A stretch of 64,000 bases of DNA. Origin: Gammaproteobacteria bacterium. Its GTDB lineage: Bacteria > Pseudomonadota > Gammaproteobacteria > Xanthomonadales > Wenzhouxiangellaceae. Of this stretch, positions 18,933 to 58,357 are shown one piece after another (positions within the stretch are counted from its first letter, which is position 1; each line of letters begins with the position of its first letter). The notes under the pieces were generated by a model that had not been told where the DNA came from, did not search any database, and was given only the letters and a program-made list of their open reading frames with translations. The translations under genes were made by a program, and so were the position numbers. The DNA lies in contig JAAAPE010000075.1 in the NCBI GenBank assembly GCA_009908385.1, positions 1 through 64,000 on the forward strand, written 5' to 3'.

Positions 18933-20177
18933 ATGCCTGTACCGATCCGACTTTCCAACGGCGTCCAGCTTCGAGACGCGACCATCGCCTCGTTCGCCCT
19001 TGCTTCGATCTGTGCTTCGGCGCTGGCCGGCACGCCCGAACCGGGTATGGACGACGCCAACATGGTGCCCAACGCCGGATTGCACGGAACCGCCGGAGCC
19101 ATCGAGGACGGCAGCGGGAGCGGTACCGTCAACGGCTTCGCGCCGACCGCGTGGCGGGCGTTCGCCGTGGGCAGTGCCGAAGTCGATATCGATATCGTCC
19201 CCCTGGCCGCCGACCAGCTGTATCCGGGAAGCCCGGCGACCAACGCCGTCCGTCTGGAGGTTGTGAACTTCGGGGCGGATCAGGGCCTGGATCACACCAC
19301 GCATCTGATCTCGCTCGATGTCGGCCGGTCATACCAGGCATCGGTCTGGGTGAAGAGCGCCAACGGCGACGACAGCGACCAGGACTTTCTGCTGCAGTCC
19401 CCCTTCTTCGACGAGGACCTGAACTTCACGGGCCGCGATCCGATGTTCGTGTCGTCGACCGCCGGCTCGGACTGGAGCCAGGTTGTTTCGCCGATGGCCA
19501 CGGCTCTCGACGGCGAGGCCTTCGCCCATCTGGCGATCCGCCTCGGGAGCGACGGCGGCGACGACAGCCTGCTCGTGGCATTGCCCCGAGTGACCGGTTT
19601 GCCGGTGGCCAACGTCACGCCCAATCCTGCCTTCGAGGGCAACGGCGGAACGGCCGCCGGCAACGTCGTCGGAAGCGTCCCCGACCAGTGGCGGGCCTTC
19701 GCCGTGGGCGACGGAACCCTGACCATCACGCCCTTCGATCTGGCCGCCGATGCGCTCTACCCGGGCAGCCCGGTCACCCGGGCGGTGGAGCTCGAGGTGA
19801 CGGGAAGCGCGGGACCGGCCGAGGGCTTCGACCACACGCTGGCGCTTTCTAGCCTGGCTGCCGGCTACCGGCACTGGGGCGAAATCTGGCTCCGCTCGGG
19901 CAGCGCGAGCCAGCAGGGCGTGACGATCGCCATGCCCTTGTTCGACCAGAGCGGCACCTTCCTGGGCGTTCAGCCCGGCAGCCTGTTCACCGAGGTCGGC
20001 CCGGACTGGACCTTCCTCGCCGGCCCGGCCTTTACCGCCGAACCGGGGCAGGCGCTGGCCAACATGGCCTTCCGGCTGCAGGCCGACGGCGGCGAAGACA
20101 GCATCGTGATCGCACTGCCGCGACTGGTGGGACCCGATCGGGACATCTTTGCCGACCGCTTCTCGGCGGCGCATTGA
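18933..20177 (+). CDS. Secreted protein with two internal repeats and C-terminal IFADRF tail
   Basis: Two ~190-aa repeats (AWRAFAVGSAEVDIDIVPLAADQLYPGSPATNAVRLEV / QWRAFAVGDGTLTITPFDLAADALYPGSPVTRAVELEV); ends DIFADRFSAAH. Confidence 0.75.
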   Translation: MPVPIRLSNGVQLRDATIASFALASICASALAGTPEPGMDDANMVPNAGLHGTAGAIEDGSGSGTVNGFAPTAWRAFAVGSAEVDIDIVPLAADQLYPGSPATNAVRLEVVNFGADQGLDHTTHLISLDVGRSYQASVWVKSANGDDSDQDFLLQSPFFDEDLNFTGRDPMFVSSTAGSDWSQVVSPMATALDGEAFAHLAIRLGSDGGDDSLLVALPRVTGLPVANVTPNPAFEGNGGTAAGNVVGSVPDQWRAFAVGDGTLTITPFDLAADALYPGSPVTRAVELEVTGSAGPAEGFDHTLALSSLAAGYRHWGEIWLRSGSASQQGVTIAMPLFDQSGTFLGVQPGSLFTEVGPDWTFLAGPAFTAEPGQALANMAFRLQADGGEDSIVIALPRLVGPDRDIFADRFSAAH

Positions 20178-35566: not shown

Positions 35567-35678
35567 TGCCGGCAGACCGGTGGTCGTTCGGATCTCAGTA
35601 ATTGGCGAGAGGGGCCTGCTACACTTTGGGGCGCCGGGGCAGCGGTCGCCGGCCTGACTTCAGCCATTGGAGGGGGCG

Positions 35679-37802
35679 ATTCGACTCCTGAGCGAACTCA
35701 AGCAGCGCAGGACCTTTCAGGTCGCCGCGACCTATTTCGTCATCGCCTGGCTGCTGATACAGGCCGGCGATATCCTGCTCGGCAATTTCGGCGCCCCGGA
35801 CTGGGTGTTCAAAACACTGGTTCTGATGCTGGCCCTGGGTTTTCCCGTCACCCTGTTCATTGCCTGGTTTCTTGGCGAATCGTCGGACCAGGCGAGGGTC
35901 ACAGGCGGGGCCGGTGCGAGCGCGGGCCGGAACCTAATGTCGGTGTTCGCCGCCGCTGCAGTGACCGCCATGGCAGTCACCCTGGTGTGGCTGGTCTGGG
36001 ACAAGTTCCGCGGCGAGCCCGTCGGGAGCGACCCCGTCCGCGAGGCATCGGTCGCCGTCCTGCCTTTCGCCGACATGAGTGCCGAAGGCGACCAGGAATA
36101 TTTCGCCGACGGCCTGTCGGAGGAGATCCTCAACCTGCTGGCCGGCATTCGTGAGCTGAAGGTTTCAGGCCGGACATCCTCGTTCTCGTTCAAGGGCAAG
36201 GACGTGCCGATTCCCCGGATCGGCGAACAGCTGGGCGTTGCGCACGTGCTCGAGGGCAGCGTTCGCAAGGCCGGCGACCAGGTGCGCGTGACCGCGCAGC
36301 TGATCGAAGCCGAGGGCGGCTTTCATCTCTGGTCCGAGACCTATGATCGCCGGCTCGACGACATCTTCGAGATCCAGGACGACATCGCCGGTGCCATCGC
36401 CGGCCAGCTCAAGCTGAGCCTGATCGATAGCGACGGCCGGGCGGTCAGCGCCAACAGCACCGATTCGCTCGAGGCCTACGAGCTCTATCTCGAGGCGCGC
36501 CGGCTGGTACAGGGGCGCTCGCTGGAAGGCCTGGAGCGAGCCCACGAGCTGCTCGAGCGGGCCCTTGCGCTCGACCCGGATTTCGCGCCGGCCCTGGCCG
36601 AGTCGGCATTGACCTGGCTGATGCGCTCGAATGCGCGCATCACGCCCGGCGACATTCCCCTGGCCACGGCGCTCTCGGAAGCCCGCCCGCGCCTCGAGCG
36701 CGCGCTTGCGCTCGATCCGAGGCTGGCCGAGGGCTACGCCGTCGGTGGCCTGATGAACATCCTGGAGCGCGATTTCGAGGGCGCGGAGTCCGCGCTGGCC
36801 CGAGCGCTCGAGCTCAACCCGAGCCAGTCCGACGCGCTCAACTGGCGCGCCATCAACCTGCGCAGCAGCGGGCGTTTACGTGAGGACATCCGGGCCAGGC
36901 GCCAGCTGGCCAAGATCGATCCGCTGCACGTCAGTAACCTGTTCAATCTCGCCATCGGCTATATCTTGGCGGGGGACGAAGCGGCCGCGATGGCGGAGGC
37001 CCGCGGTATGCGCGAGCGGTTTCCCGGGATTCCCTGGGGGGAACTGGCCGAACTCGAGGTGCTCGAGGCATTCGGCCGGCTGGCCGAGGCCGACCGGATG
37101 GGGCGTCGGGCGATCGAGGCCGGCAACGAAGTCGTGCGTTCGGCGGCCGGCAGCGTCAATTTCATGCTCGGTCGCTACGAAGCTTCGATGGCGCTTGCCG
37201 GCGTCGAGTACGACATGGCATTGCTGGCTCTGGGGCGGGTCGACGAGGCGCTGGCGGCGGCGCGAGACCGGGCCGTATCGTCACCCCGCGACCAGGAAGC
37301 CGCGCACGGCCTGATGCACACCCTGAGCCTGGCCGGCCGACACGAGGCGGTGCTGGCTTACTACGAGAAGCGCTGGGGCAGTATCGAGGCACTGTCCCAG
37401 TATTTCGGTTTCGACACGCTGTCGGCCGAGATGATCCCGGTGGCCGCGGCGCAATACCACCTGGGCTTGACCGAGGCACTCGAGGACACGATGGCCCACT
37501 GGCGCCAGCGAATGACCGTCCCCGTCGACCAGGGTTACGACATGCCCTACTTCCATGCCATCCGGGCCCGGCTCGAGGCCCTCTCGGGCCATCCGGAACC
37601 GGCGGTCGAGTTTCTGGCCAGGTCCGTCGAGGGCGGCTATCTCGATCCGCTGCTGCAGCGGATGCCGTCGTTCTCGATGCTTCGCAACGATCCGGCATTC
37701 CAGCGTGTCGTCGAGCGCAATTTCGAATTGATCGACATCGAGCGCTCGAAGCTCGATCTGCCCCCGATCGAACGGGAGCAGGCTGCGCCGCCCCCACCGT
37801 AG
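35679..37802 (+). CDS. TM protein with TolB/FlgO-like domain and TPR repeats
   Basis: LLSELKQRRTFQVAATYFVIAWLLIQAGD, ASVAVLPFADMSAEGDQEYFADGLSEEILNLLAGIRELKVSGRTSSFSFKGKDV, TPR-like C-terminus. Annotated TTG start at 35667 lacks an RBS; ATT at 35679 follows GGAGGGGGCG. Confidence 0.8.
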   Translation: MRLLSELKQRRTFQVAATYFVIAWLLIQAGDILLGNFGAPDWVFKTLVLMLALGFPVTLFIAWFLGESSDQARVTGGAGASAGRNLMSVFAAAAVTAMAVTLVWLVWDKFRGEPVGSDPVREASVAVLPFADMSAEGDQEYFADGLSEEILNLLAGIRELKVSGRTSSFSFKGKDVPIPRIGEQLGVAHVLEGSVRKAGDQVRVTAQLIEAEGGFHLWSETYDRRLDDIFEIQDDIAGAIAGQLKLSLIDSDGRAVSANSTDSLEAYELYLEARRLVQGRSLEGLERAHELLERALALDPDFAPALAESALTWLMRSNARITPGDIPLATALSEARPRLERALALDPRLAEGYAVGGLMNILERDFEGAESALARALELNPSQSDALNWRAINLRSSGRLREDIRARRQLAKIDPLHVSNLFNLAIGYILAGDEAAAMAEARGMRERFPGIPWGELAELEVLEAFGRLAEADRMGRRAIEAGNEVVRSAAGSVNFMLGRYEASMALAGVEYDMALLALGRVDEALAAARDRAVSSPRDQEAAHGLMHTLSLAGRHEAVLAYYEKRWGSIEALSQYFGFDTLSAEMIPVAAAQYHLGLTEALEDTMAHWRQRMTVPVDQGYDMPYFHAIRARLEALSGHPEPAVEFLARSVEGGYLDPLLQRMPSFSMLRNDPAFQRVVERNFELIDIERSKLDLPPIEREQAAPPPP

Positions 37803-45518: not shown

Positions 45519-46091
45519 TCAGTGCTCGCGTTTGAGTTGTCGGTGCAAACGCCAGGCGTAGATGCCCAGTGCCAGCGCAATGACCATTCCGACGCCGAAG
45601 CCCTTTAGCCAGTGAATTCGCATCTTGCCGGTGTCGATGTCGTGGCGGTGGTTCCAGATCTCGACGATCTTGCCGTCGCTAATGCGGAAGACATTGATGA
45701 TCGGCAGGCTGTGCTCGCCGAGCATCGCCCAGCCGCGGAGCGTGTCGGGCTGGAAATGCAGGGTCCAGCGCGTGGCGACGAGGTCGCCTTCGGCGATCTG
45801 GTAGTCGATCTCGCCGGACAATTCCCCCAGCGACCAGAAAAAGTCCGCGATGCGCTTTTGCCGGATGGCCGGTTCGGTCACGTTCTTGCGGTCGCCGGTG
45901 TCGTGAACGACATATTCCTCGGCCACGTAGTCGGCATACCGCTCGGTGTTCCCTGAAAACCACAGGTCTTCATAGAGACCCCGGGCGATTTGCTTGTTCT
46001 CGGCCGTGCCGGCCGTAGCGATCTGCGCGGAGCAAAGAAGTACTACGCCCAGAATGGCGCCGAAAGTGAATCGAGCGGGATGCGACTTGAT
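45519..46091 (-). CDS. Secreted SnoaL-like/NTF2-fold protein with C-terminal TM
   Basis: Same-frame extension past the GTG at 45926 gives KSHPARFTFGAILGVVLLCSAQIATAGTAENKQIARGLYEDLWFSGNTERYADYV (signal peptide plus missing domain start); GGAG 7 nt before ATC at 46091. Confidence 0.6.
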   Translation of the reverse strand: MKSHPARFTFGAILGVVLLCSAQIATAGTAENKQIARGLYEDLWFSGNTERYADYVAEEYVVHDTGDRKNVTEPAIRQKRIADFFWSLGELSGEIDYQIAEGDLVATRWTLHFQPDTLRGWAMLGEHSLPIINVFRISDGKIVEIWNHRHDIDTGKMRIHWLKGFGVGMVIALALGIYAWRLHRQLKREH

Positions 46092-46128: not shown

Positions 46129-46157
46129 TAATGCCGCGTTCCCGGAATACCGAACGC
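46129..46157 (-). promoter_or_regulatory. Conserved upstream element copy 1
   Basis: Minus strand GCGTTCGGT-ATTCCGGGAACGC-GGCATTA, 37 nt before 46091. Confidence 0.65.
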
Positions 46158-46264
46158 ATGCCGATCGAAGCGATCGGTCCGCGCTGCCCCGGTATGGGCA
46201 GCGCCCGCTCGGGCGGGGTATGCTGGTTGCGGTCATTGACTTGCGTGAACTCGCCAATCCGCGA

Positions 46265-48766
46265 ATGCCGCCCGAGGACGATCCGAATCTGCTGAATCTG
46301 GCCGAGTCGGTCGCGGACGGTCGTGATGTCACCGGCGAGGCGGGATCGGATGCCCCGTCGGACAACCTGCGTCGTCTCGCGGCGCTCGCCGGCGTATTCA
46401 GTCGGTTTCGCGAAAGCGCGCCGGAGCCGCCGTTCAGTTGGGCCGGCCTGGAAGTCGAGTCGGTGGTCGGACAGGGCGGGTTCGGGACGGTCTACCGGGC
46501 CCGCGATCCCGTTCTGGCGCGTTACGTGGCGCTGAAGCTCATCGATCGCGGCGCCCTGGACGACGACGAATTCATGGGCGAAGCCCGTCGACTGGCCCGG
46601 GTGAGGCATCCCAACGTGCTTTCCGTCCACGGCGTCGAGCAGGCCGAAGGTCTCGTGGGCCTGTGGGCCGATCTGCTCGAAGGAGAAACGCTCGAGGAAC
46701 TCCTGGCGCGCGGTCCCGTGGACCGGACTTCGCTGCTGGCCATCGCCGCCCAGCTCGCCGAGGCCCTGCGCGCCGTGCACGCCGCAGGCCTGGTCCACGG
46801 CGACATCAAGGCCGGCAACGTGATGATCGACGCCGACGGGCACGTCACCCTCATGGACTTCGGGGCCGCCCACCAGGCGGTCGGCGGTCTCCTGCGATTC
46901 GGCTCGCCGCGCAACATGGCCCCCGAGTGCTTCGACGCGCCGTCCGGCTTGTTCGCGGCCGACGTCTACGCCTTCGGCGCGCTCCTCTATCGCATGGCCG
47001 CCGGTCGCCATGCCTGGGCGGATCTGGATCGGGAGCGCCTGGTCGCGCGCAAGCGCGGCGGCGAGCTCGACCTGAAACCGCTCGGCGGCCTGCCCCGTCG
47101 GTTGCGGTCGTTGATCACGGCCATGTTGGCGCCGACGCCCGATGCACGACCGGATATGGCCGGCATCGTCCGGCGCATCGAATGGCTCCGCTCGGCGCCC
47201 GTTCGGCGATTGCGAAGGGCCGCGGCGGTCGCGGCCGCACTTTGCCTGGCGATGCTGGCCGCCTGGATGGTCGACCGCAACGATCTGACTCCCGAGTCGG
47301 GCTCGTCCTTCGAAGCGTCGGTTGCCGTGATGCCCTTCGACGATCTCGATGCCGACAAGGAGCACGGCGATTTCGTCCGTGGTCTGTCCGACGAGATCCT
47401 GCATGCGCTCTCCGGGGTTGGCGGGCTGAAGGTCATCGGGCGCTATTCCGCGTATGCCGCCGTCGACGGCGAGCGGTCGGAAGCGGCGAAAAAGCTCGGC
47501 GTCGATCATCTGCTCCACGGTTCGGTCCGGCGAAGCGGCGATCGGCTTCGCGTCTATGCCGAGCTCACGCGCTCCGAAGACGGCGCGCAGGTCTGGTCGG
47601 AGACGTTCGACCGGCGGCTCGACGACGTCTTCCGGATTCAGGACTCGATCGCCGCCGAAGTGGCCAGGGCGCTTCGCGGCGTGACCATCGACGACGACCG
47701 AAGCGACGTTCGGCGCACCGATGTCGACCTCTACGAGATCTACTTGCGCGGCTTGAGTCTGCTCAATCGGCGCGGCGTCGACAACTTGCTGCGGTCGATC
47801 GAGTATTTCCGCGACGTGGTCGACCGCGATCCGCGATTCGCGCCCGCCTGGTCGGGGCTGTCGTCGGCCTACGCCGTCCTGCCGTCCTACATGAACGCGC
47901 CCGCCGACTCCGTGGAGAAAGCGCTGAAAGCCGCGCGGCGGGCCATCGAGCTCGATCCCGACGACGGACTGGCGCTGGGGGTTCTGGCCACCCAGCACAC
48001 GGTGGATCGGGAATGGCTGCAAGCCGAGCGGATGCACCAGCGATCCCTGGCGGCGTCGCCGAGCAGCAGCGTCCTGCAGATGTGGTACGGCGAGCTGATG
48101 GCGGAGACCGGTCGGCTGATCGCCAAGCGCGAGCGAATGGCTCTGGCCGTGGAACTCGATCCGCTGGCGCCGGCGCAGCGGGGCAATTACGGATGGGCGC
48201 TGATCGTCAACGGCGATTTTGCCGGTGGCCGGCGTGAATGCCTCAGAGCCTGGAACCTGGGCCTGGAAGCGATTTTCGTGTGGCAGTGCACGTACTACTC
48301 GCTGCTGTTTTCAGAACGCTTCGACGAGGCGAGAAGCTGGATCGAACGTGTGCCACGGGGCGCGACGTATCGACAGCAGGTGCGGTTGTTCCAGGCCGCT
48401 TATCGCGATCCCTACAATGCCGACAAGCATCAACGTGCGCTCGACGCGCTCGAGGAGGCGCGCGAGCACGGGATTGCCCATTGGGAGAGCGCCGCCTGGC
48501 TGAGCATGCTCGGCGAAACCGAGTCGGCGCGGCAAGTCATCGAAGAGGCGGTCGCTTCCGGTGACCTCGAGCTTGTCCGATCGCTGTTCGGGCCGCACTT
48601 CACCGCGCTGCAGGGTGAGGATCGTTTCGTCGACCTGATGCATCGCCTCGGTATGGTCGAATACTGGCGTGCGACGGAGTGGAGTCCGCTTTGCCGGCCC
48701 GTCGGCGGGCAGGTGGAATGTGCGCCGATCGTCGATGGATGGAGACGGTCTGAAGGTGAATCTTGA
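46265..48766 (+). CDS. TM Ser/Thr protein kinase with TolB/FlgO-like and TPR C-terminal region
   Basis: GQGGFGTVYRARDPVLARYVALKLIDR, LVHGDIKAGNVMIDADGHVTLMDFGAA, one TM, ASVAVMPFDDLDADKEHGDFVRGLSDEILHALSG. Confidence 0.9.
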   Translation: MPPEDDPNLLNLAESVADGRDVTGEAGSDAPSDNLRRLAALAGVFSRFRESAPEPPFSWAGLEVESVVGQGGFGTVYRARDPVLARYVALKLIDRGALDDDEFMGEARRLARVRHPNVLSVHGVEQAEGLVGLWADLLEGETLEELLARGPVDRTSLLAIAAQLAEALRAVHAAGLVHGDIKAGNVMIDADGHVTLMDFGAAHQAVGGLLRFGSPRNMAPECFDAPSGLFAADVYAFGALLYRMAAGRHAWADLDRERLVARKRGGELDLKPLGGLPRRLRSLITAMLAPTPDARPDMAGIVRRIEWLRSAPVRRLRRAAAVAAALCLAMLAAWMVDRNDLTPESGSSFEASVAVMPFDDLDADKEHGDFVRGLSDEILHALSGVGGLKVIGRYSAYAAVDGERSEAAKKLGVDHLLHGSVRRSGDRLRVYAELTRSEDGAQVWSETFDRRLDDVFRIQDSIAAEVARALRGVTIDDDRSDVRRTDVDLYEIYLRGLSLLNRRGVDNLLRSIEYFRDVVDRDPRFAPAWSGLSSAYAVLPSYMNAPADSVEKALKAARRAIELDPDDGLALGVLATQHTVDREWLQAERMHQRSLAASPSSSVLQMWYGELMAETGRLIAKRERMALAVELDPLAPAQRGNYGWALIVNGDFAGGRRECLRAWNLGLEAIFVWQCTYYSLLFSERFDEARSWIERVPRGATYRQQVRLFQAAYRDPYNADKHQRALDALEEAREHGIAHWESAAWLSMLGETESARQVIEEAVASGDLELVRSLFGPHFTALQGEDRFVDLMHRLGMVEYWRATEWSPLCRPVGGQVECAPIVDGWRRSEGES

Positions 48767-48825
48767 TCATGACTGTATCGAAGAGGAGCCCATGACTTTT
48801 CGGCCGGTTTCGAATCCGGCCACGG

Positions 48826-50343
48826 TCACTGCTCGAATCGATCGCCGAATATCGGCGGCCCGCTTCCGAACTCGAAAGCACCGAGGTCGCAGGTCCCGAT
48901 GCGGGGCGCGCCGCGCTGGTCGTGTTCGACCGGGTTGCCGTCAAAGTCCGTGCAGCCACCGGGGTCGCCGGCGTCGATGGCCGGCGAACCGGGCTGCAAC
49001 GCATGGGTGTGTGTGGGTCCGAAGTTGTCTTGCAGCGGGCCGAGCTGGGGGTCGCTTCCGAGGATGACGCCGCTGGTGTCACCCGCCACCAGACACGGGG
49101 CAAGCGGGCCCGAAGTGGACGCGTTTTCGATCAGGTTGTAGCCGTCGGACTGCAGCGTGCCGGAGCAGTCTTCCGCCTGCGGATTGCCCGAAGGTGAGCC
49201 GTCGATGTTGTCGGCGACGATCGAGTTGCGCAGTTCGACGGTGGTGCTGACGCAGAACGGATTGCAATCGGAAGGCGGTTCCAGGTAAATGCCGCCGCCA
49301 TCGCCACTCCCATCGCCGTCGTGATCGGCGGTGTTGTTGGCTATCGTAGAACTGGCGATTTGCAGGCTCTTGCTGGCACAGACATAAATGCCGCCTCCGT
49401 CTTCCGTGGTCCTGTTTCCGCTGATCGTCGAGTTGACGATACGGCCCGGTTCATTACCGCAGAAAAAGATCCCACCGGCTTCGCTATCGTGAATCAGCGA
49501 ATCCTGGATCCAAGTTTGTTCGCTGGTGGAGTGAATGAAGATGCCGTATCCAAAAGTGGTCTCCACGCGGGATCGAAGCACCGTCAGGGAGCCAGAGGAC
49601 TCGATGGACGCGTCATCGTTGTCGCTTATCCGCGAGTCAATCAATGACAATTCTCCTTGATTCAGGATCCCTTGCGAGATTTGGCTGCCGGAGATTGTGC
49701 AACTGGTCAGAAATGCTGTTGCTTGATTGACCATATTGCCGCCTTCACTCGCGGTATTGCCCTTGAGCGTGCAGTTCTCCGACACCAGGGTGCCGGAATT
49801 GTGTATTCCTCCACCCAGGGAACTGCTCGAGCTCTCTATCAGGACGTCTTGCAGCGAAAGGTCTCCAACGTTTCGTACCCCTCCGCCAACGGCATCTCCT
49901 GGTTTCGGTCCCGCCGCTTTGCACTCCAGTAATTCGACCCGTCTCAGAGTCAGGTTTCCCTCGTTTAAGAGGCATCCGCCGCCACCTGTGCCCTGGAAAT
50001 AGCCGTAGCGAATTTGCAGATCCCGAATGGTGGCGGTCGTGTTCGGGAATATCCAGAACACACGAGCCGGAGCGGTATTCGGTGCGCTGGCCGCCTGAAT
50101 CGTCGTGTTGTCAACGCCCTGACCCTGAATCGTGACGTCCTTGTTGACCGAAATATCGAACTCGGTGTGGGGCAGGGAGCTGAGCAGCTCGATGGTGTCG
50201 CCGGCCGCGGCCTGACTGATCGCGCCTTGAATTGTGGTGGAATCACAGCCGCTGGGGCAGACCGTCCACGTCGCTGCGGGTAGGGCCGATGGAATGGACG
50301 CGAAACCGAGTGCGGCGAAGACCAGGGCGTAGGGACGGAGCAT
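48826..50343 (-). CDS. Secreted right-handed beta-helix, choice-of-anchor-Q-like protein; IFGDRF tail
   Basis: MLRPYALVFAALGFASIPSALPAATWTVCPSGC, NSTISGNRTTEDGGGIYVC, CDLGAFEFGSGPPIFGDRFEQ. Confidence 0.85.
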   Translation of the reverse strand: MLRPYALVFAALGFASIPSALPAATWTVCPSGCDSTTIQGAISQAAAGDTIELLSSLPHTEFDISVNKDVTIQGQGVDNTTIQAASAPNTAPARVFWIFPNTTATIRDLQIRYGYFQGTGGGGCLLNEGNLTLRRVELLECKAAGPKPGDAVGGGVRNVGDLSLQDVLIESSSSSLGGGIHNSGTLVSENCTLKGNTASEGGNMVNQATAFLTSCTISGSQISQGILNQGELSLIDSRISDNDDASIESSGSLTVLRSRVETTFGYGIFIHSTSEQTWIQDSLIHDSEAGGIFFCGNEPGRIVNSTISGNRTTEDGGGIYVCASKSLQIASSTIANNTADHDGDGSGDGGGIYLEPPSDCNPFCVSTTVELRNSIVADNIDGSPSGNPQAEDCSGTLQSDGYNLIENASTSGPLAPCLVAGDTSGVILGSDPQLGPLQDNFGPTHTHALQPGSPAIDAGDPGGCTDFDGNPVEHDQRGAPRIGTCDLGAFEFGSGPPIFGDRFEQ

Positions 50344-50375
50344 GGCGTTGGGGAAGCGACGGGTTCATCCGGGGA

Positions 50376-50403
50376 CAATGCCGCGAATCGCGAGACCGAA
50401 CGC
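50376..50403 (-). promoter_or_regulatory. Conserved upstream element copy 2
   Basis: Minus strand GCGTTCGGT-CTCGCGATTCGC-GGCATTG, 32 nt before the start at 50343. Confidence 0.7.
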
Positions 50404-50465
50404 GCGATCTGGACATGGGCCGGTTCAACGGGCTATGTTTTTCGCGGAAGGCAGGGGCATCGCCG

Positions 50466-52973
50466 ATGCACGAAAGCGAATCGAAGCTGCTGGAGATCGC
50501 GCGCGTCGTCGCCGATGGCAATGCTCCGGAATTGTCCGAGTCCGCCAGCCCCGGCCTGGACAACCTGGGCCGACTGCATGCCCTGGCGAACAGGTTTGCC
50601 GAATGCCGGGGACAGGCTCCTGAGCCGCCCTTCCAATGGGCCGGGCTGGAAGTCGAGTCGGTGCTGGGCTGCGGTGGTTTCGGCACCGTGTATCGTGCTC
50701 ATGACCCGGCGTTGGGGCGCCCTGTCGCGCTCAAGCTGATCGATCGCAGCGCCCTGGCCGGCGACGACTTCATCATCGAGGCTCGACGTCTGGCGCGTGT
50801 TCGCCATCCCAATGTGTTGACGATCCACGGCGTCGATGAATCCGAGGGCCGGATCGGTCTTGCCACCGAATTGATCGATGGCGAGGCCCTGACTGAGCGG
50901 CTGGCAGAGTCAGCGAGGTTGACTGAAAGACAGCTGCTCGACATCGCCGGTCAACTCGCCGCGGCGATGCGCGCGGTGCATGCGGCCGGGCTGGTCCACG
51001 GCGATATCAAGGCGGGCAATGTCATGGTCGACGCGTCCGGCCACGTCACCCTGATGGACTTCGGGGCCGCCTACCGGGCCGATCAGCGACCTCGATTCGG
51101 CTCGCTGGACACCGCGGCGCCGGAAGTCGTCGAAGAAGGTTCCGGGTCACCGGCAGCCGATCAATATTCCCTCGGCGCGTTGCTGTATCGCGCCGCTGCC
51201 GGCGTCCAGCCGCATTCCGGGCCGAATCGCGAGGCCATGATCGAGAAAAAGCGCACGCGTGATCCCGACCCGGCCCCGTTGCGTCATCTTTCCGGACCGA
51301 CCCGGCGCCTGATTTTCGAGCTGCTGGCACGCGATCCGGCGGATCGACCCGACGCTGCCGAGACCGTTGACCGTATCTCCGAGATCAAGGCGAGACCGGT
51401 CCGGCGCATGCGCCGTTTGGCCCTCGCTTCCGTTGCCAGCGCCATGCTGATCGGGTTTCTCGTGACCACTATTGCTTTTTTTCAGGTTCGAGACTCGCAG
51501 CGCGAGACCGAAGCGGCGCTGAAGGAGGCCGAATCGGTCAATGCATTGCTGACCGACCTCATCGCGGCGCCGCGCCCGACCGAGGCGGGACAGACGACGA
51601 CGGTGGTCGAAGCCCTGGAACAGTTCGAGCCGCGCCTTGCGACGGCGCTGATCGACCAGCCCCGGGCCCGAGCGCGTTTGTTGCGAACGGTGGGTCATAC
51701 CTTCGTGCAATTGAACGACGCCGAGCGGGCACGGGACTATCTACAGAAAGCGCTGAATCTGGAAAATGAATTCGCTGATACCGATCAGGCCGCGCGACTG
51801 GATACGGTCGATCTTCTGGCACAGGCCGAACTCGCGGGCGATGCACCTGAGCGAGCGCTGGACCTGCTCAAGCCCGTGACGACTTCAGGCCTGGCGGCAT
51901 TGGACTCGGCCCACGAACTTCAGGTGCGGCTGGCGGTAACCCGATCCCATGCGCACCAACGGCTGGGCGAGCTCGAGGCCGCCCAGCGCTGGGCACGGCA
52001 GGCGATGGAGGCCGCGTCGGACACGCGGTGGCAGTATCCCGAGAATCGAATTCTGCCTCCCCTGCGAATGGGCAATGTCCTTCTGGCGCGAGGCAGGCCG
52101 ACGGAAGCCGAACGGTTTGCCCGCGAGGCGGTGTCGATCGCGAGCGAAGACCTACCGCCGCGCCATGCCAATGACCTTGCTGCCAGGGGCATGCTGGCCC
52201 AGATTCTCGTCCGAACGGGGCAACCCACAGAGGCATTGCCCGTCATTCGAAACGCCCTGACGGTATCGCAGGGCTGGCTGGGCCCCGGCCATTCGCGAAC
52301 GATCGTGTTTCGCAATCTGCTCGGGATCGTGCTGATGCACCTGGGCCGCTACGAGGAGGCCGAGACGGTCCTGGCCGGCTTGATCCAATCCCACGCTCGG
52401 GATCTGGGCGCGGAAAGTCCGCGGGTGCTGTCATTGCGCGTCAATCACGCCAATGCCCTTCGCTACCAGGGAAGGGTCGAATCGGCAATCGAGACTTATC
52501 GCGAGGTCGTGCGTGATGGGTCGGCACATCACGGCGAACGAGCCGGCCCCACGCGCGTGGCTCACGCCAACCTGTCCGAGGCCCTTCTCGAGGTCGGCAG
52601 AATCGAGGCGGCGAGACGCGAGGCGCAGGCCGCGCTGGAGATTGTCCTCGAGCCGTTCGGACCCTCGCATCCTTTCACCTTGCATGCCCGCATGGTGCTG
52701 GCGGCGGCGGACGCCGAAGACGGCCGGGCCGGATCGGCCGTTTCCGAACTGCGCGGGCTCGTCGACCGGTACTCGGAGATCATGGGGCCTGATGCGCCGT
52801 CGTCGTTGCTGGCCCAGACTTACCGCGTACGGGCGCTGCGTGCGGCGGGCCGCCCGGCGGAAGCCGAGCAATTACTCGGCAAGATCAGCGAGCTCGCCCG
52901 CGCGAAGCTGAACGAGAAACACCGCGTCGCACGCCGGATCGCCCGACTCCAGTCGAGACCTGGTAGTCGCTGA
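50466..52973 (+). CDS. TM Ser/Thr protein kinase with TPR C-terminal region (paralogue of 46265..48766)
   Basis: GCGGFGTVYRAHDPALGRPVALKLIDR, LVHGDIKAGNVMVDASGHVTLMDFGAA, TM, TPR-like repeats. Confidence 0.9.
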   Translation: MHESESKLLEIARVVADGNAPELSESASPGLDNLGRLHALANRFAECRGQAPEPPFQWAGLEVESVLGCGGFGTVYRAHDPALGRPVALKLIDRSALAGDDFIIEARRLARVRHPNVLTIHGVDESEGRIGLATELIDGEALTERLAESARLTERQLLDIAGQLAAAMRAVHAAGLVHGDIKAGNVMVDASGHVTLMDFGAAYRADQRPRFGSLDTAAPEVVEEGSGSPAADQYSLGALLYRAAAGVQPHSGPNREAMIEKKRTRDPDPAPLRHLSGPTRRLIFELLARDPADRPDAAETVDRISEIKARPVRRMRRLALASVASAMLIGFLVTTIAFFQVRDSQRETEAALKEAESVNALLTDLIAAPRPTEAGQTTTVVEALEQFEPRLATALIDQPRARARLLRTVGHTFVQLNDAERARDYLQKALNLENEFADTDQAARLDTVDLLAQAELAGDAPERALDLLKPVTTSGLAALDSAHELQVRLAVTRSHAHQRLGELEAAQRWARQAMEAASDTRWQYPENRILPPLRMGNVLLARGRPTEAERFAREAVSIASEDLPPRHANDLAARGMLAQILVRTGQPTEALPVIRNALTVSQGWLGPGHSRTIVFRNLLGIVLMHLGRYEEAETVLAGLIQSHARDLGAESPRVLSLRVNHANALRYQGRVESAIETYREVVRDGSAHHGERAGPTRVAHANLSEALLEVGRIEAARREAQAALEIVLEPFGPSHPFTLHARMVLAAADAEDGRAGSAVSELRGLVDRYSEIMGPDAPSSLLAQTYRVRALRAAGRPAEAEQLLGKISELARAKLNEKHRVARRIARLQSRPGSR

Positions 52974-52979
52974 CACGGG

Positions 52980-54509
52980 TCACTGCTGGAACCGATCACT
53001 GAAGATCGGCGGCCCACTTCCGAACTCGAAAGCGCCGAGGTCGCAGGTCCCGATGCGGGGCGCGCCGCGCTGGTCGTGATCGAGCGGGTTGCCTTCGAAA
53101 TCGCCACAGCCGTCCGGATCGCCGGCGTCGATGGCCGGGGAACCGGGCTGCAGTGCGTGGGTCGGCGTCGGGCCGTGATTGTCCGCCAGGGAGTCCAGCA
53201 GGGGGTCGCTTCCCACCATCGCCCCGGAGGTGTCGCCATCGACGAAGCAGTTGCCGGTCAACTCGGACAGCGAGCCCTGTTCGACCAGGTTGTAGCCGTC
53301 GGACTGCAATGTGCCGTCGCAGTCGTGCGCATGGCGGAAGCCGGAGGGCGAGTCGTCGAGGTTGTCGGCAATGATCGAATTACGCAGTTCGACCGTGGTG
53401 TTGATGCAGATGGGGTTGCAGTCGGTTGGCGGCTCGAGAAAGATACCGCCGCCATTGCCATCTCCGTCGCTGTCCGAATCCGCGATGTTACCGGCAATGG
53501 TCGAGCTCGCGATGCGCAGCGTGCGCGATTCGCACACGAAAATCCCCGCGCCGCTTCCCGTGCTCACGTTTCCCGCGATGGTGCTATTGACCAAAGACAT
53601 TGGCTCCGAGCTGCATTGGGAAATGCCGCGGGCGTTGTCGGTCATCAAAACGCCTCTTATATCAACCTGCGCTTCGCCCAAAGCGGCGAGGGCGTTGCCA
53701 GTGCTGACCGTGATCGAAACCATCTCAATGGCGGCCGCGCCACCTGAAATGAATACGGCGACTCCCGAGCTGTCATGAACGGCGCTTTGGCGCAAACCCA
53801 GGCTTCCAACACTGAATATGGCCGACCCGACCGGAGACAGAATTGAGTGGCCTTCAATTGTGCAGTCAATCAGTTCGGCCGAACCTTGGTTGTACAGGCC
53901 GCCGCCGGCATTCTCGGCCGATGAACCCAGGGTCGTGTTGAGGAATAGTTCGCAGCCTTCGATGGACAGCATGCCAGCGTTGTATATGCCGCCGCCCTGA
54001 TCTGCTTGTGACTGGGCGACTCGCGTGGCATGGAGTTGCAAAGAGCCCGTGTTGTAAAGTCCGCCGCCGCTGCCGCTGGTGATGCAGCCCTCGACTGTGA
54101 CGTTCTCAAGCGTCAAGTCGCCTTCGTTGAGGAGGCATCCCCCGTTGGTGCCGCCAACGCCAAACTGGATCGTCATGTCGCGGATGATCACGCTGTTTCC
54201 ACTGAGGATATGGAACACCCGCGCCGAGGCCATGTAAGGCCCGCTGGCGGCTCGAACGGTTGTGACATCCCGACCGGCTCCGTCAATCTCGATTGATTTG
54301 TCGACCACGACATCGGACTCGGTCATTGGTGATGGGGGCGTGGAATCGACAATCTCCACAATATCGCCTGAAGTCGCCTGGTCGATGGCTGCTTGTATGC
54401 TGATGGCGTCGCAGCCGCTGGGGCAAACCGTCCACGTTGCGCTCTGTCCGGGCACGGCCAGGACCCCGGCAATAATCAGGACTGCAGCATATGCAACGGG
54501 TCTAACCAT
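52980..54509 (-). CDS. Secreted beta-helix, choice-of-anchor-Q-like protein; IFSDRF tail (paralogue of 48826..50343)
   Basis: MVRPVAYAAVLIIAGVLAVPGQSATWTVCPSGC, CDLGAFEFGSGPPIFSDRFQQ; start set by comparison with the paralogue. Confidence 0.85.
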   Translation of the reverse strand: MVRPVAYAAVLIIAGVLAVPGQSATWTVCPSGCDAISIQAAIDQATSGDIVEIVDSTPPSPMTESDVVVDKSIEIDGAGRDVTTVRAASGPYMASARVFHILSGNSVIIRDMTIQFGVGGTNGGCLLNEGDLTLENVTVEGCITSGSGGGLYNTGSLQLHATRVAQSQADQGGGIYNAGMLSIEGCELFLNTTLGSSAENAGGGLYNQGSAELIDCTIEGHSILSPVGSAIFSVGSLGLRQSAVHDSSGVAVFISGGAAAIEMVSITVSTGNALAALGEAQVDIRGVLMTDNARGISQCSSEPMSLVNSTIAGNVSTGSGAGIFVCESRTLRIASSTIAGNIADSDSDGDGNGGGIFLEPPTDCNPICINTTVELRNSIIADNLDDSPSGFRHAHDCDGTLQSDGYNLVEQGSLSELTGNCFVDGDTSGAMVGSDPLLDSLADNHGPTPTHALQPGSPAIDAGDPDGCGDFEGNPLDHDQRGAPRIGTCDLGAFEFGSGPPIFSDRFQQ

Positions 54510-54511
54510 GG

Positions 54512-55042
54512 TTGGTGTTCGGAAATGAATCGGGTTCATTGACACCAATGCCGCTGTCCCGGGAACCGAACGCCCCGTTGCGCTTGAGGTGGGCAAGAGC
54601 CCCCGACGCGATGGACGATCCGTTCCTTCGTTCCGGAGTGGAGGAAGACGTTCTCGACAGCCTCGGCGGCCGGGCGCTCCGCATGGCGCCCATGTTGCCG
54701 CCGGTCCACGAGCGCCACTGGCGGCAGGTGCTCGACTCGATCGGCCGGGCGCACGCCGCCGGCGTGCGGTCGTTTGGGCACCGACACCAACAACCCCTAT
54801 GTCTTCCCGGGCTACAGCGTTCATGTCGGGCTCGAACTGCTGGTCGAAAGCGGCATGTCGCCGATGGCCGTCCTGATTGCGGGGACCCGGGCGGCCGCGG
54901 AAATTCTGGTTCACGAGGCCGACTACGGGACGCTGGAGCCGGGCAAGCGCGCCGATATCCTGCTGCTCGACGACAATCCTTTGGAGGCATTCGGGCGACG
55001 CGCATGCTGTCGGCAGTAATCAAGGAGCGGCAAGCTGATTGA
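54512..55042 (+). pseudogene. Amidohydrolase (imidazolonepropionase-like) C-terminal remnant, two frameshifts
   Basis: Frame 1 ...DSIGRAHAAGVRS | frame 2 LGTDTNNPYVFPGYSVHVGLELLVESGMSPMAVLIAGTRAAAEILVHEADYGTLEPGKRADILLLDDNPLE | frame 1 GIRATRMLSAVIKERQAD*. Confidence 0.75.
54546..54573 (-). promoter_or_regulatory. Conserved upstream element copy 3
   Basis: Minus strand GCGTTCGGT-TCCCGGGACAGC-GGCATTG, 36 nt before the start at 54509. Confidence 0.7.
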
Positions 55043-55106
55043 TCGGCAGTCGCTGGTCACGGAAGAGCATCTGCAATAAGAGCTTGATCGCTGTTGATGG
55101 ATGCGC

Positions 55107-55135
55107 CCGTTCGGTTTCCGGTTGAACAGGCATTG
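55107..55135 (+). promoter_or_regulatory. Conserved upstream element copy 4
   Basis: CCGTTCGGT-TTCCGGTTGAACA-GGCATTG, 30 nt before the start at 55166. Confidence 0.7.
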
Positions 55136-55165
55136 CGTACTTGGAGAGCCATCGAGGGACTGTTT

Positions 55166-56344
55166 ATGCCATTCATTCGAATTTTATTGAGTGACTACCG
55201 AACCACCATTGTGCGATTACTTGTGTTTGTCTTGCTCAGCACTTGTTGTATCGCGTCGGTCGGCGCGGCCACCTTCTGCGCCACTACCAGTGCCGAACTT
55301 CAAGCGGCACTCGATACCGCCGAGACCAACGGGGAAGCAGACGAGGTGCGGGTTCTGACCGGGACCTATACCGCGCCAGCCGGCGGTTTTTCCTACAATG
55401 CAATAGGATCCTCCGGCCCAGATCAGAGTATCGAGATCAGCGGTGGCTGGTCGGGGACCATCGGCGGCTGCGGACAGGTGCTGGAGGAAAACGCTGCGCT
55501 CACCGTGCTGTCGGGAGATTTATCCAACCGAGTGATGAGTGTCTTGTTGCCCAGCGACGCTGACGCGACGGTGCGTCTATTGAGCTTCGTTAGCGGCAAT
55601 ACTTCCGGACAGTTCGCTGGCGGCGGGCTGAACGTGCAGGGCACCAACCCTTATAACGGGGTGATAACGATCGAGCGCAATATCTTTCTCAACAATGAGG
55701 CCGAAAACGGTGGCGGTCTTAATGTTTTCTACACCGGGTCGACGGCCGCTAATACCCTAATCGTCAACAATCTGTTCGCCGGCAACCATGCCCGCGACAA
55801 TGCCGGTGCGCTCGATCTCGAAATCGAACAGGCGCCCAGTCTGTCACCCGCACGGGGCAGTATGCTTCCGGCCGTTTCGGTGACGAATAACACCATCGTC
55901 GATAACAGCCTTCCGCCGATCATCCTTCCTCCGCCTGATCTGGTCGGCGGAATGCGCATCGACGGGACGGTGAGCAACAAGTGGGTCGTCAACAATAATA
56001 TCTGGGCCAACCAGGCGACCGACCTGTTCATCGGTAATGGCTCGGGCCTGCGCTTGTGGAACAACAACATCCAGTCCCGGGCAGGTGATGCCCCGACGAG
56101 CGAGCAGAACAATATCAGCGCGGAGCCCGAGTACCTGGATTGCGGTTTGCTGTGTGTGGCTCGTACGCCGGCAGTCTCCTCACCCCTTATGGACGCGGGG
56201 GCGTTTCCGCAGACCGGCCACCCCTGGTTCCTCTCGGATACCGATCTTCGCGGTCTCACGAGAGTGCGCGACGAAGGTATCGAAATAGGCGCCTACGAGA
56301 ACAACACGCTGCTTTTTTCTGACCGCTTTGAATCCGCGCTCTGA
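55166..56344 (+). CDS. Secreted beta-helix protein; LFSDRF tail
   Basis: Signal peptide MPFIRILLSDYRTTIVRLLVFVLLSTCCIASVGA; NNLFAGNHARDNAGALDLE, EIGAYENNTLLFSDRFESAL. Confidence 0.8.
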   Translation: MPFIRILLSDYRTTIVRLLVFVLLSTCCIASVGAATFCATTSAELQAALDTAETNGEADEVRVLTGTYTAPAGGFSYNAIGSSGPDQSIEISGGWSGTIGGCGQVLEENAALTVLSGDLSNRVMSVLLPSDADATVRLLSFVSGNTSGQFAGGGLNVQGTNPYNGVITIERNIFLNNEAENGGGLNVFYTGSTAANTLIVNNLFAGNHARDNAGALDLEIEQAPSLSPARGSMLPAVSVTNNTIVDNSLPPIILPPPDLVGGMRIDGTVSNKWVVNNNIWANQATDLFIGNGSGLRLWNNNIQSRAGDAPTSEQNNISAEPEYLDCGLLCVARTPAVSSPLMDAGAFPQTGHPWFLSDTDLRGLTRVRDEGIEIGAYENNTLLFSDRFESAL

Positions 56345-56401
56345 ATCATGGCGTTCCGGGGTTCTGAAATCTGGTTGCCACCTTTGTGAGAGTGAGCCGA
56401 A

Positions 56402-56429
56402 CCGTTCGTTCTGTGTTTCAGAGGCATTG
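56402..56429 (+). promoter_or_regulatory. Conserved upstream element copy 5
   Basis: CCGTTCGTT-CTGTGTTTCAGA-GGCATTG, 41 nt before the start at 56471. Confidence 0.65.
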
Positions 56430-56470: not shown

Positions 56471-57637
56471 ATGAGATACCACTCGATTGTTTTCGCGGGT
56501 TTGATGATGATCACAGCCGCTTTCGCTAACGCACAGGGAACTTATGATGACGCAGTGGTTGGCTATGCGTATACGAGCCCGTCGGGTAGCCTGCAGTTCG
56601 AGAACCTGTATCACCGTTCGGGTGGGGACATCACCGTAGACCATACGTCGGAAGGCCAGTACAAAATCCGCTTCTATGGTGCATCGACCCAGGGTAGTTA
56701 CATACCCATGCTGGCCTGGCCAGCCGCCGACGGCGGAGTGTGCACGATCAGTGGCTTCGGTCCCGGTCTTGATTTTTCCCATGATCCGCCCACGTTTCGC
56801 TGGGTGGGCGTTCAATGCTCCGACGCTTTGACTGTCAATCCCGACGATGATTGGAATCAGGTACTCCTCGTCGATGAGGGAGGCCCCGACGGCAGTAACA
56901 CCAGCCTGGCTTTTGTTGAAAGCCGTGAAGCCATGCCACCCGGTGGCTCCGTTGACCTGTCGAGCGAGAACTCTACTTACAATCCGGGTGGCGGTACAAC
57001 GAGTTTGAGTAGAACGGGCTTGGGAGAGTACTACGTCTCCATGGACGGTCTGGGTGCCGTCATGCCGGCTGACGTCAATGTGTACGTCGCGGCATTTAGC
57101 GATTATTCCCGATCCTGTCGCGTAGCCGACTGGACGCTGCACTTCGCGGGCTCGGACAACGCCCGAGTACAGGTCCGCTGCTCAGGTCCCTCGGGACCAG
57201 TGGACATGCGATTCGTGCTGTTGCTGACATCGACCGAGCCATCCTCGGCTTCAGCGGCAAGCGCCAAGATCAATGGCTTTTCCCAGCCCTCGGAGTGGAC
57301 GACTGTCAGTGGCAGTGCCGTACACAACCCTCATGGTCAGGTTCAATTCAGATGGGATGGCGATAATCACCAGATCCGCTTTGAATGGCCTAGCGATCAA
57401 CCGGAAGGCGTGGCTTTCGTCACTTCGGCGTACTCCCAACTTCGATTCTGTTCAAGCACTACGGCACATCGCCCGCCAGGCGGCCCGGCGGATTATCTCC
57501 AGGTCAACGTGAACTGCTTTGATTTCGATGGCACTTTGGGCGTGGGCACATTCACCGTACTCTTGACGCAGGTCACTCCAGCGCCCCCGGGCGACCTGAT
57601 CTTCAGTGACCGGTTCGCAATGGGCGATTCCCAATAA
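56471..57637 (+). CDS. Secreted protein with about three degenerate repeats; IFSDRF tail
   Basis: Signal peptide MRYHSIVFAGLMMITAAFANAQ; repeats ending VGVQC.../VQVRC.../VNVNC... VLL; ends DLIFSDRFAMGDSQ. Confidence 0.75.
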   Translation: MRYHSIVFAGLMMITAAFANAQGTYDDAVVGYAYTSPSGSLQFENLYHRSGGDITVDHTSEGQYKIRFYGASTQGSYIPMLAWPAADGGVCTISGFGPGLDFSHDPPTFRWVGVQCSDALTVNPDDDWNQVLLVDEGGPDGSNTSLAFVESREAMPPGGSVDLSSENSTYNPGGGTTSLSRTGLGEYYVSMDGLGAVMPADVNVYVAAFSDYSRSCRVADWTLHFAGSDNARVQVRCSGPSGPVDMRFVLLLTSTEPSSASAASAKINGFSQPSEWTTVSGSAVHNPHGQVQFRWDGDNHQIRFEWPSDQPEGVAFVTSAYSQLRFCSSTTAHRPPGGPADYLQVNVNCFDFDGTLGVGTFTVLLTQVTPAPPGDLIFSDRFAMGDSQ

Positions 57638-57766
57638 TCCGGGCACTATTCAGGAGTCCGGTGGTCGCCCCGAGTGATATTAGAGCGGCAGGCGGGGCGA
57701 ATGATACTCGGTTCCGGCTAGCCAAACGCGGTCGTTTCTGCTCCAATAGTAGGGGTGAGGCGACCC

Positions 57767-58357
57767 ATGAACGAAGCTGTAATCGATTCTACAACCCGAC
57801 TGATTCGCGAGGCGCAGTCCGGTGACGGAACTGCGCGTGATCGCCTGTTTGCGCGTTGCCGGCCGCTGCTCAGGCGCTGGGCGCGAGGTCGATTGCCGCA
57901 TTTTGCCCGTGATCTGGCCGATACCGAAGACCTTGTTCAGACGGCCCTGACTCGGGCTTTCACCAATTTGGACCGCTTTGAGGCACGGGGTACGGGCTCG
58001 TTTCTTGCCTACCTGCGAACCATCACGCTCAACGCGGTCAAGGAAGAGCTGCGGCGCAGCGGCCGCCGGCCGGAGGACACGGAGCGGTTCGAGGCGGCGG
58101 ACGATTCGACTAATCCCGTTCTGGAGGACGCGATCTCAGCCGATACGCTGGCTGACTACGAGTCCGGTCTGGATCGGCTCGACGAACCGCGTCGGGAGGC
58201 TGTCGTTCTGAGACTGGAGTTTGGGCTGAGCTATTCGGAAATCGCCGAAGAGCTGGGATTGGCATCAGCCGACGCGGCTCGCATGAAAGTCTCCCGCGCC
58301 TTGGTTCGCCTCGCCGAGGTTATGCGACCGCCTGACGATTCAGCTGGCGCTCACTGA
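57767..58357 (+). CDS. ECF-type sigma factor
   Basis: [53 protein letters not shown] ... [39 protein letters not shown]. Confidence 0.85.

Follow-up and report, generated by a model that had tools for sequence, protein, structure and literature searches.

The window, a stretch of 64,000 nucleotides (positions 1 to 64,000 of contig JAAAPE010000075.1, forward strand) from a gammaproteobacterium of the Wenzhouxiangellaceae, contains five copies of an intergenic two-box element, CGTTCGG (box 1) followed by GGCATT (box 2), each placed before a putative secreted-protein gene. The element is best read as the predicted -35/-10 promoter of an uncharacterized, kinase-linked family of extracytoplasmic function (ECF) sigma factors, in which the acidic DxxD motif is retained and encloses a nearly invariant Thr; one member is encoded in the window at 57767..58357. 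Comparison across genomes supports a promoter-like element that is tied to the family of this ECF and stands before secreted-protein genes. The whole explanation, in which promoters read by the ECF drive secreted targets and kinases activate the sigma factor, is given a probability of about 0.87. A broader claim is favoured with clearly less assurance: that this is a widespread, undescribed kinase-linked ECF family with Thr inside DxxD, the promoter class YGT[T/G]CGGTT-N11/12-GGCATT, mainly neighbouring secreted targets with an FxxGFE-like tail, and a T/G promoter preference that switches with Asp or Asn at residue 169.

Five copies of the element in the window

All five copies fall within 10.3 kb:

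46129..46157, minus strand: element copy 1, GCGTTCGGT-N13-GGCATTA, before the SnoaL-like gene
50376..50403, minus strand: element copy 2, GCGTTCGGT-N12-GGCATTG, before the gene of beta-helix protein 1 (48826)
54546..54573, minus strand: element copy 3, GCGTTCGGT-N12-GGCATTG, before the gene of beta-helix-like protein 2 (52980)
55107..55135, plus strand: element copy 4, CCGTTCGGT-N13-GGCATTG, before the gene of secreted protein 3 (55166)
56402..56429, plus strand: element copy 5, CCGTTCGTT-N12-GGCATTG, before the secreted-protein gene at 56471

An earlier note on this DNA had described the copies with this sequence, gap, position and orientation, and a genome-wide pattern scan confirmed them. 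SCGTTCGKTN{12,13}GGCATTR has exactly five matches in the genome (2,939,376 bases, 85% complete), all inside the window, and none in the control read backwards; the strict pattern was derived from the five copies themselves, so its uniqueness in its own genome is partly circular, a circularity from which the scans of other genomes and loci are free. From the end of GGCATT to the start codon there are 33 nt (48826), 37 nt (52980), 31 nt (55166) and 42 nt (56471), and outside the boxes the flanks of the five copies do not align by eye. With the looser pattern NGTKCGGT...GGCATT the genome gains one further site, at C27. A homologue of the 55166 protein starts 33 nt after it, and the only close ECF paralogue of the genome, 51% identical to the window ECF, lies some 4 kb away.

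The element in loci chosen for their sigma factor

A set of 42 loci (745,597 bases) was picked solely for encoding a relative of the window ECF, at 40-59% identity. These loci hold three sites at no mismatch and seven at one mismatch, against none for the reversed control; all ten have a spacer of 12 or 13, and the nine other spacers from 8 to 18 give a total of two. Eight of the ten lie 31-44 nt upstream of an open reading frame (ORF) that begins like a signal peptide, and one of these eight is acidobacterial. Simple rules served to call ORF starts and signal peptides, and many of the compared genomes are incomplete. The divergent gap beside the ECF gene holds the sites of L077, L080 and L087, which belong to two other families of the order, and of L050, an acidobacterial metagenome-assembled genome; in L115, L116, L118 and L119 the sites are found elsewhere in the ECF locus, and one of two close sites in L119 has no start codon that was found. 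The site in L122, whose boxes flank a hairpin-like repeat, lacks a proper target start and is probably a chance match.

When a signal-peptide-like ORF is required downstream, 8, 6 and 6 rows remain at 0, 1 and 2 mismatches, a count that takes in the window along with L092 and L131, two loci that the pattern itself had picked out; eight scrambled motifs under the same requirement give none at 0 and 1 mismatch and at most one at 2. The proteins encoded downstream vary, and include a trypsin-like protein (L050) and proteins with FG-GAP repeats (L080), fn3 (L077) and a beta-helix (L131). Some relatives carry TGTGCGG in place of CGTTCGG; after this variant was seen, the fourth base of box 1 was left free and 60 further ECF loci were scanned as a fresh test, which returned 1, 11 and 18 sites at 0, 1 and 2 mismatches (30 in all) compared with totals of 1-3 for five scrambled motifs.

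Genomes drawn without regard to the sigma factor provide a background. Of 369 drawn from the class, 15 match YGTTCGGTTN{11,12}GGCATT; the 14 besides the genome of the window are all from other orders (364 genomes), their matches mostly sit in long open frames, and none has a signal-peptide ORF at the appropriate distance or an ECF relative within 1.5 kb. Across the order the C-form matches in 6 of 398 genomes and the ECF family is present in 57 of 398; three of the five C-form genomes besides that of the window (G039, G058 and G100) have the ECF family. Exact-pattern matches across relatives were not accepted as evidence when taken alone, being mostly in coding regions or without context outside ECF loci.

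Neither of the pattern-found loci has an ECF gene in its stretch of contig. At L131 (G058:C133, 9826-9890) two elements on opposite strands face away from each other with 11 nt between them, and each precedes the gene of a signal-peptide protein, one of 611 aa and the other of 1456 aa ending IFEDGFE; the pair is a candidate target promoter that would work in both directions and from afar. At L092 (G039:C78, 9984-10009) a perfect element stands 30 nt before the gene of a secreted protein with the tail VFSDGFE, so targets may lie away from the sigma gene. Upstream of beta-helix-type homologues in L079, L122, L091, L124 and L134 the sequence reads TGTGCACTT...CGTT and similar, closer to ordinary ECF -10 sequences; these are possibly diverged promoters among the remoter members of the ECF family.

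Box 1 and the recognition helix

The fourth base of box 1 follows the residue aligned to D169, at the start of the sigma 4.2 recognition helix, T going with Asp and G with Asn. Both sets together give Asp/T 21, Asp/G 1, Asn/T 2 and Asn/G 17 (Fisher p 2e-8); in the fresh set alone the T/G counts are 11/0 for Asp and 2/8 for Asn. The sister ECFs of L115 and L117, which have similar targets of about 1590 aa, differ both in the residue (D and A) and in the base (T and G). The covariation is considered a strong association, consistent in direction and short of proof. The proposal of the earlier note that the element is an alternative-sigma promoter, perhaps of the ECF at 57767, is supported by this covariation and by loci chosen for their ECF, in which the element recurs before signal-peptide genes with its spacing unchanged; the check it had named, whether matches are no more linked to secreted-protein genes than chance would give, was run by sequence and did not refute the claim.

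The sigma factor, the kinases and the proposed mechanism

The putative regulators in the window are as follows:

57767..58357, plus strand: ECF sigma factor that would read the five elements (Pfam Sigma70_r2, Sigma70_r4_2; alternative start GTG at 57755)
46220..48766, plus strand: Ser/Thr kinase 1 (Pfam Pkinase 3e-35; long C-terminal part)
50466..52973, plus strand: Ser/Thr kinase 2 with TPR repeats (Pfam Pkinase 2e-39, TPR_12 7e-34)

The window ECF is a 196 aa protein of bare sigma 2 and sigma 4 that ends shortly past sigma 4; Pfam Sigma70_r2, Sigma70_r4_2 and Sigma70_ECF score above cut-off and NCBIfam sigma70-ECF also matches, in agreement with an ECF (group 4) sigma factor, of which a bipartite -35/-10 target promoter is expected and is here predicted by comparison. 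By alignment it has DTED in sigma 2.2, with Thr53, and D169 at the start of the recognition helix. The motif [D/E/G]-T-x-D is kept in all 52 aligned relatives, and Thr stands at the second position of DxxD, between the acidic residues, in 52/52 of these and in 60 of the 61 matches of the fresh set.

Both kinases display the catalytic Asp, Asn and DFG (by eye) and a hydrophobic stretch past the kinase domain, followed by the long C-terminal part; they share 55-59% identity within the kinase domain and are paralogous to the kinases encoded directly downstream of the ECF gene in almost all relatives. In the fresh set 57 of 61 ECF matches have a co-oriented kinase gene directly downstream, and almost every one of the first 42 loci shows this arrangement too; the window is unusual in that its ECF gene is separated from its kinases. 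The kinases at 46220 and 50466 are very probably part of the same system as the ECF and the elements. As a separate observation, a 711-aa membrane protein (35667-37802) resembles by eye the C-terminal half of the protein encoded at 46220-48766 (VAVMPFDDL... and VAVLPFADM..., ...WSETFDRRLDDVFRIQD), which suggests that it shares a non-kinase module with kinase 1.

In the proposed mechanism each element would act as a promoter with box 1 (CGTTCGG) as the -35 and box 2 (GGCATT) as the -10; the ECF at 57767 together with RNA polymerase would read these elements and switch on the five nearby secreted-protein genes. The two membrane kinases probably sense a signal outside the cytoplasm, and would activate the ECF by phosphorylation, perhaps at the near-invariant Thr53 within DxxD. 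A phosphorylation switch at Thr53 or elsewhere is a natural guess for this family. The transcription starts, the pairing of the sigma factor with the five promoters in the cell, the phosphorylation with its site, the stimulus and the role of the secreted proteins are inferred parts of the explanation. Known regulons are rare among kinase-linked ECF sigma factors. In this case the promoter is readable from sequence, which would provide a candidate sigma-promoter pair whose link is testable by one residue and one base, with a set of secreted proteins as the output; it would also make it possible to study how kinase control might work on a sigma factor whose core-binding motif is still acidic.

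Some points weigh against this explanation. The ECF gene and the two kinase genes have no upstream element at up to 2 mismatches, and no autoregulation is seen; many ECF relatives lack a clear site in the stretch scanned; the acidic DxxD is kept in the window ECF, which might thus be active without phosphorylation; and counting Asp/Asn switches on the tree gives one independent pair on supported branches and 4-5 on the best tree, so that the covariation is statistically unproven because there are too few independent switches among related ECFs.

Relation to known systems

The ECF43 sigma factors pair with a Ser/Thr kinase, as in EcfP/PknT from Vibrio parahaemolyticus and EcfK/PknS from Xanthomonas citri (PMC13147305, PMC8999054). 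In EcfP and EcfK the acidic motif is lost (QTTA/STTA), and a Thr at that place is the residue that the partner kinase phosphorylates (PMC8999054, PMC13147305); the outputs known for ECF43 comprise a type VI secretion system and resistance to polymyxin. The window family is similar in that the ECF is encoded beside a membrane Ser/Thr kinase and has a Thr in the sigma 2.2 core-binding motif, and the TPR-rich periplasmic part of PknS has a likeness in the TPR repeats of window kinase 2 (PMC13147305, PMC8999054). Unlike ECF43, it keeps the acidic DxxD and its predicted outputs are secreted proteins; membership in ECF43 was rejected, as a kinase is nearby but the acidic motif has not been lost (DTED in the window, [D/E/G]TxD in relatives).

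The experimentally supported promoter of ECF41 is TGTCACA-N16-CGTC with a spacer of 16 +/- 1 (PMC3426412). The likeness lies in a bipartite promoter, predicted for the window family, a -35 box starting TGT and targets mainly beside the sigma gene (PMC3426412); the spacer of 15-16 from CGTTCGG to CATT agrees with that of ECF41 (PMC3426412), and the reading of the element as a predicted ECF-family promoter draws on this equal geometry. Unlike ECF41, the window ECF comes with kinases and without a C-terminal regulatory domain; assignment to ECF41 was rejected, given a protein of 196 aa with no C-terminal extension and a motif, CGTTCGG-N15/16-CATT, that differs in sequence from TGTCACA-N16-CGTC.

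In ECF59, 61, 62, 217 and 283 a kinase gene adjoins the ECF gene, and a DAED-like motif has Ser/Thr in or near it (PMC8999054); by description the window family, which may belong to one of them, resembles these in kinase adjacency and in an acidic motif with Thr; their listed examples are planctomycetes and an actinobacterium. TIGR02984 (Sig-70_plancto1) is the best-scoring named subfamily model for the window ECF at 76.6 bits, far below its cut-off of 183.75, and membership was therefore rejected.

Alternative explanations

The element could be the site of another regulator that activates or represses, in which case the promoter would be used by a different sigma factor and the ECF would be a mere neighbour. 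A dimeric regulator would also fit a pair of conserved boxes spaced by about two helix turns, and the proposed binding of the ECF to the element comes from sequence comparison; however, the element recurs in loci selected by the ECF alone, box 1 covaries with the ECF recognition helix, start codons lie at a promoter-like distance, the spacer equals that of known ECF promoters, and box 2 is always on the start side, the boxes being neither an inverted nor a direct repeat of each other. This alternative is considered improbable.

Much less credible is that gene duplication carried the copies along as upstream DNA with no common function. In its favour, the two beta-helix proteins share 52% identity and the two kinases are paralogues; against it, three of the five targets have no relation in sequence, the flanks outside the boxes are unaligned by eye, and in distant genomes the element precedes unrelated secreted proteins (trypsin-like, FG-GAP, fn3 and beta-helix). 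The earlier note had held that co-duplication covers copies 2 and 3 at best; these precede the paralogues, and the other three targets show no BLAST similarity to them or among themselves.

A 5' leader motif acting in RNA, riboswitch-like or bound by a protein, is rejected with similar firmness: the element does lie shortly upstream of start codons, but an Rfam search of it gave no match, conservation is confined to two short boxes, with a spacer that is variable in both sequence and length, and the covariation is with a DNA-binding helix. Chance or composition, in the form of GC-rich two-box patterns chosen by eye and fitted after the fact by the earlier reader, is the least credible explanation of all and was likewise rejected, given reversed and scrambled controls near zero on independent loci, the 14 contextless matches in other orders, and the fresh-locus test, which refutes it unless the loci share ancestry across intergenic DNA.

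Putative secreted targets and their C-terminal tail

The putative targets of the ECF-read promoters in the window are as follows:

45519..46091, minus strand: SnoaL-like protein with a signal-peptide start, putative target 1 (Pfam SnoaL 3e-14, scanned from 46082)
48826..50343, minus strand: beta-helix / choice-of-anchor Q secreted protein 1, putative target 2 (domain profile matches; tail IFGDRFEQ)
52980..54509, minus strand: beta-helix-like / choice-of-anchor Q secreted protein 2, putative target 3 (tail IFSDRFQQ)
55166..56344, plus strand: secreted protein 3, putative target 4 (family profile match below cut-off; tail LFSDRFESAL)
56471..57637, plus strand: secreted protein, putative target 5 (no family in profile scans; tail IFSDRFAMGDSQ)

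The 52980 protein is the 52% identical paralogue of the 48826 protein; BLAST of the SnoaL-like, 55166 and 56471 proteins against the beta-helix proteins and each other found no similarity. Homologues of the 55166 protein are present in many ECF loci, one of them beside the ECF paralogue of the genome. The term "secretion regulon", used earlier for this cluster, is retained in the sense of secreted or surface protein targets and dropped in the sense of a secretion system.

Four of these proteins (48826, 52980, 55166 and 56471) and those at 18933, 21834 and 30098 carry a short, conserved C-terminal tail, [ILV]F-x-D-R-F-E in the genome of the window and FxxGFE in relatives, with no membrane helix. 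An FxDxFE-like tail is found in 29 of 53 rows of full-length ORFs downstream of the motif, which contain some double counts and chance sites; for hydrophobic-start ORFs of these loci the figure is 92 of 702. The literature searched for this tail gave no relevant description; it looks like a sorting or anchoring signal. The genome of the window has 40 DNA matches to the tail, of which 25 of 30 inspected are truly C-terminal; because the tail is common across the genome, the regulon would be a subset of the tailed proteins.

The signal peptide of the SnoaL-like gene is in frame but preceded by no ATG, GTG or TTG; ATC at 46091 (46089-46091, minus strand; IKSHPARF...) has GGAG before it and lies 38 nt past the box, placed like the other starts, and represents either a rare non-canonical start codon or a sequence error. 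The gene order is SnoaL-like (minus), kinase 1 (plus), beta-helix 1 (minus), kinase 2 (plus), beta-helix-like 2 (minus), a remnant-looking stretch, secreted protein 3 (plus), the 56471 protein (plus) and the ECF sigma factor (plus). The remnant-looking stretch (54611-55042, plus strand), between copies 3 and 4, appears to be a broken amidohydrolase-type gene with frame breaks.

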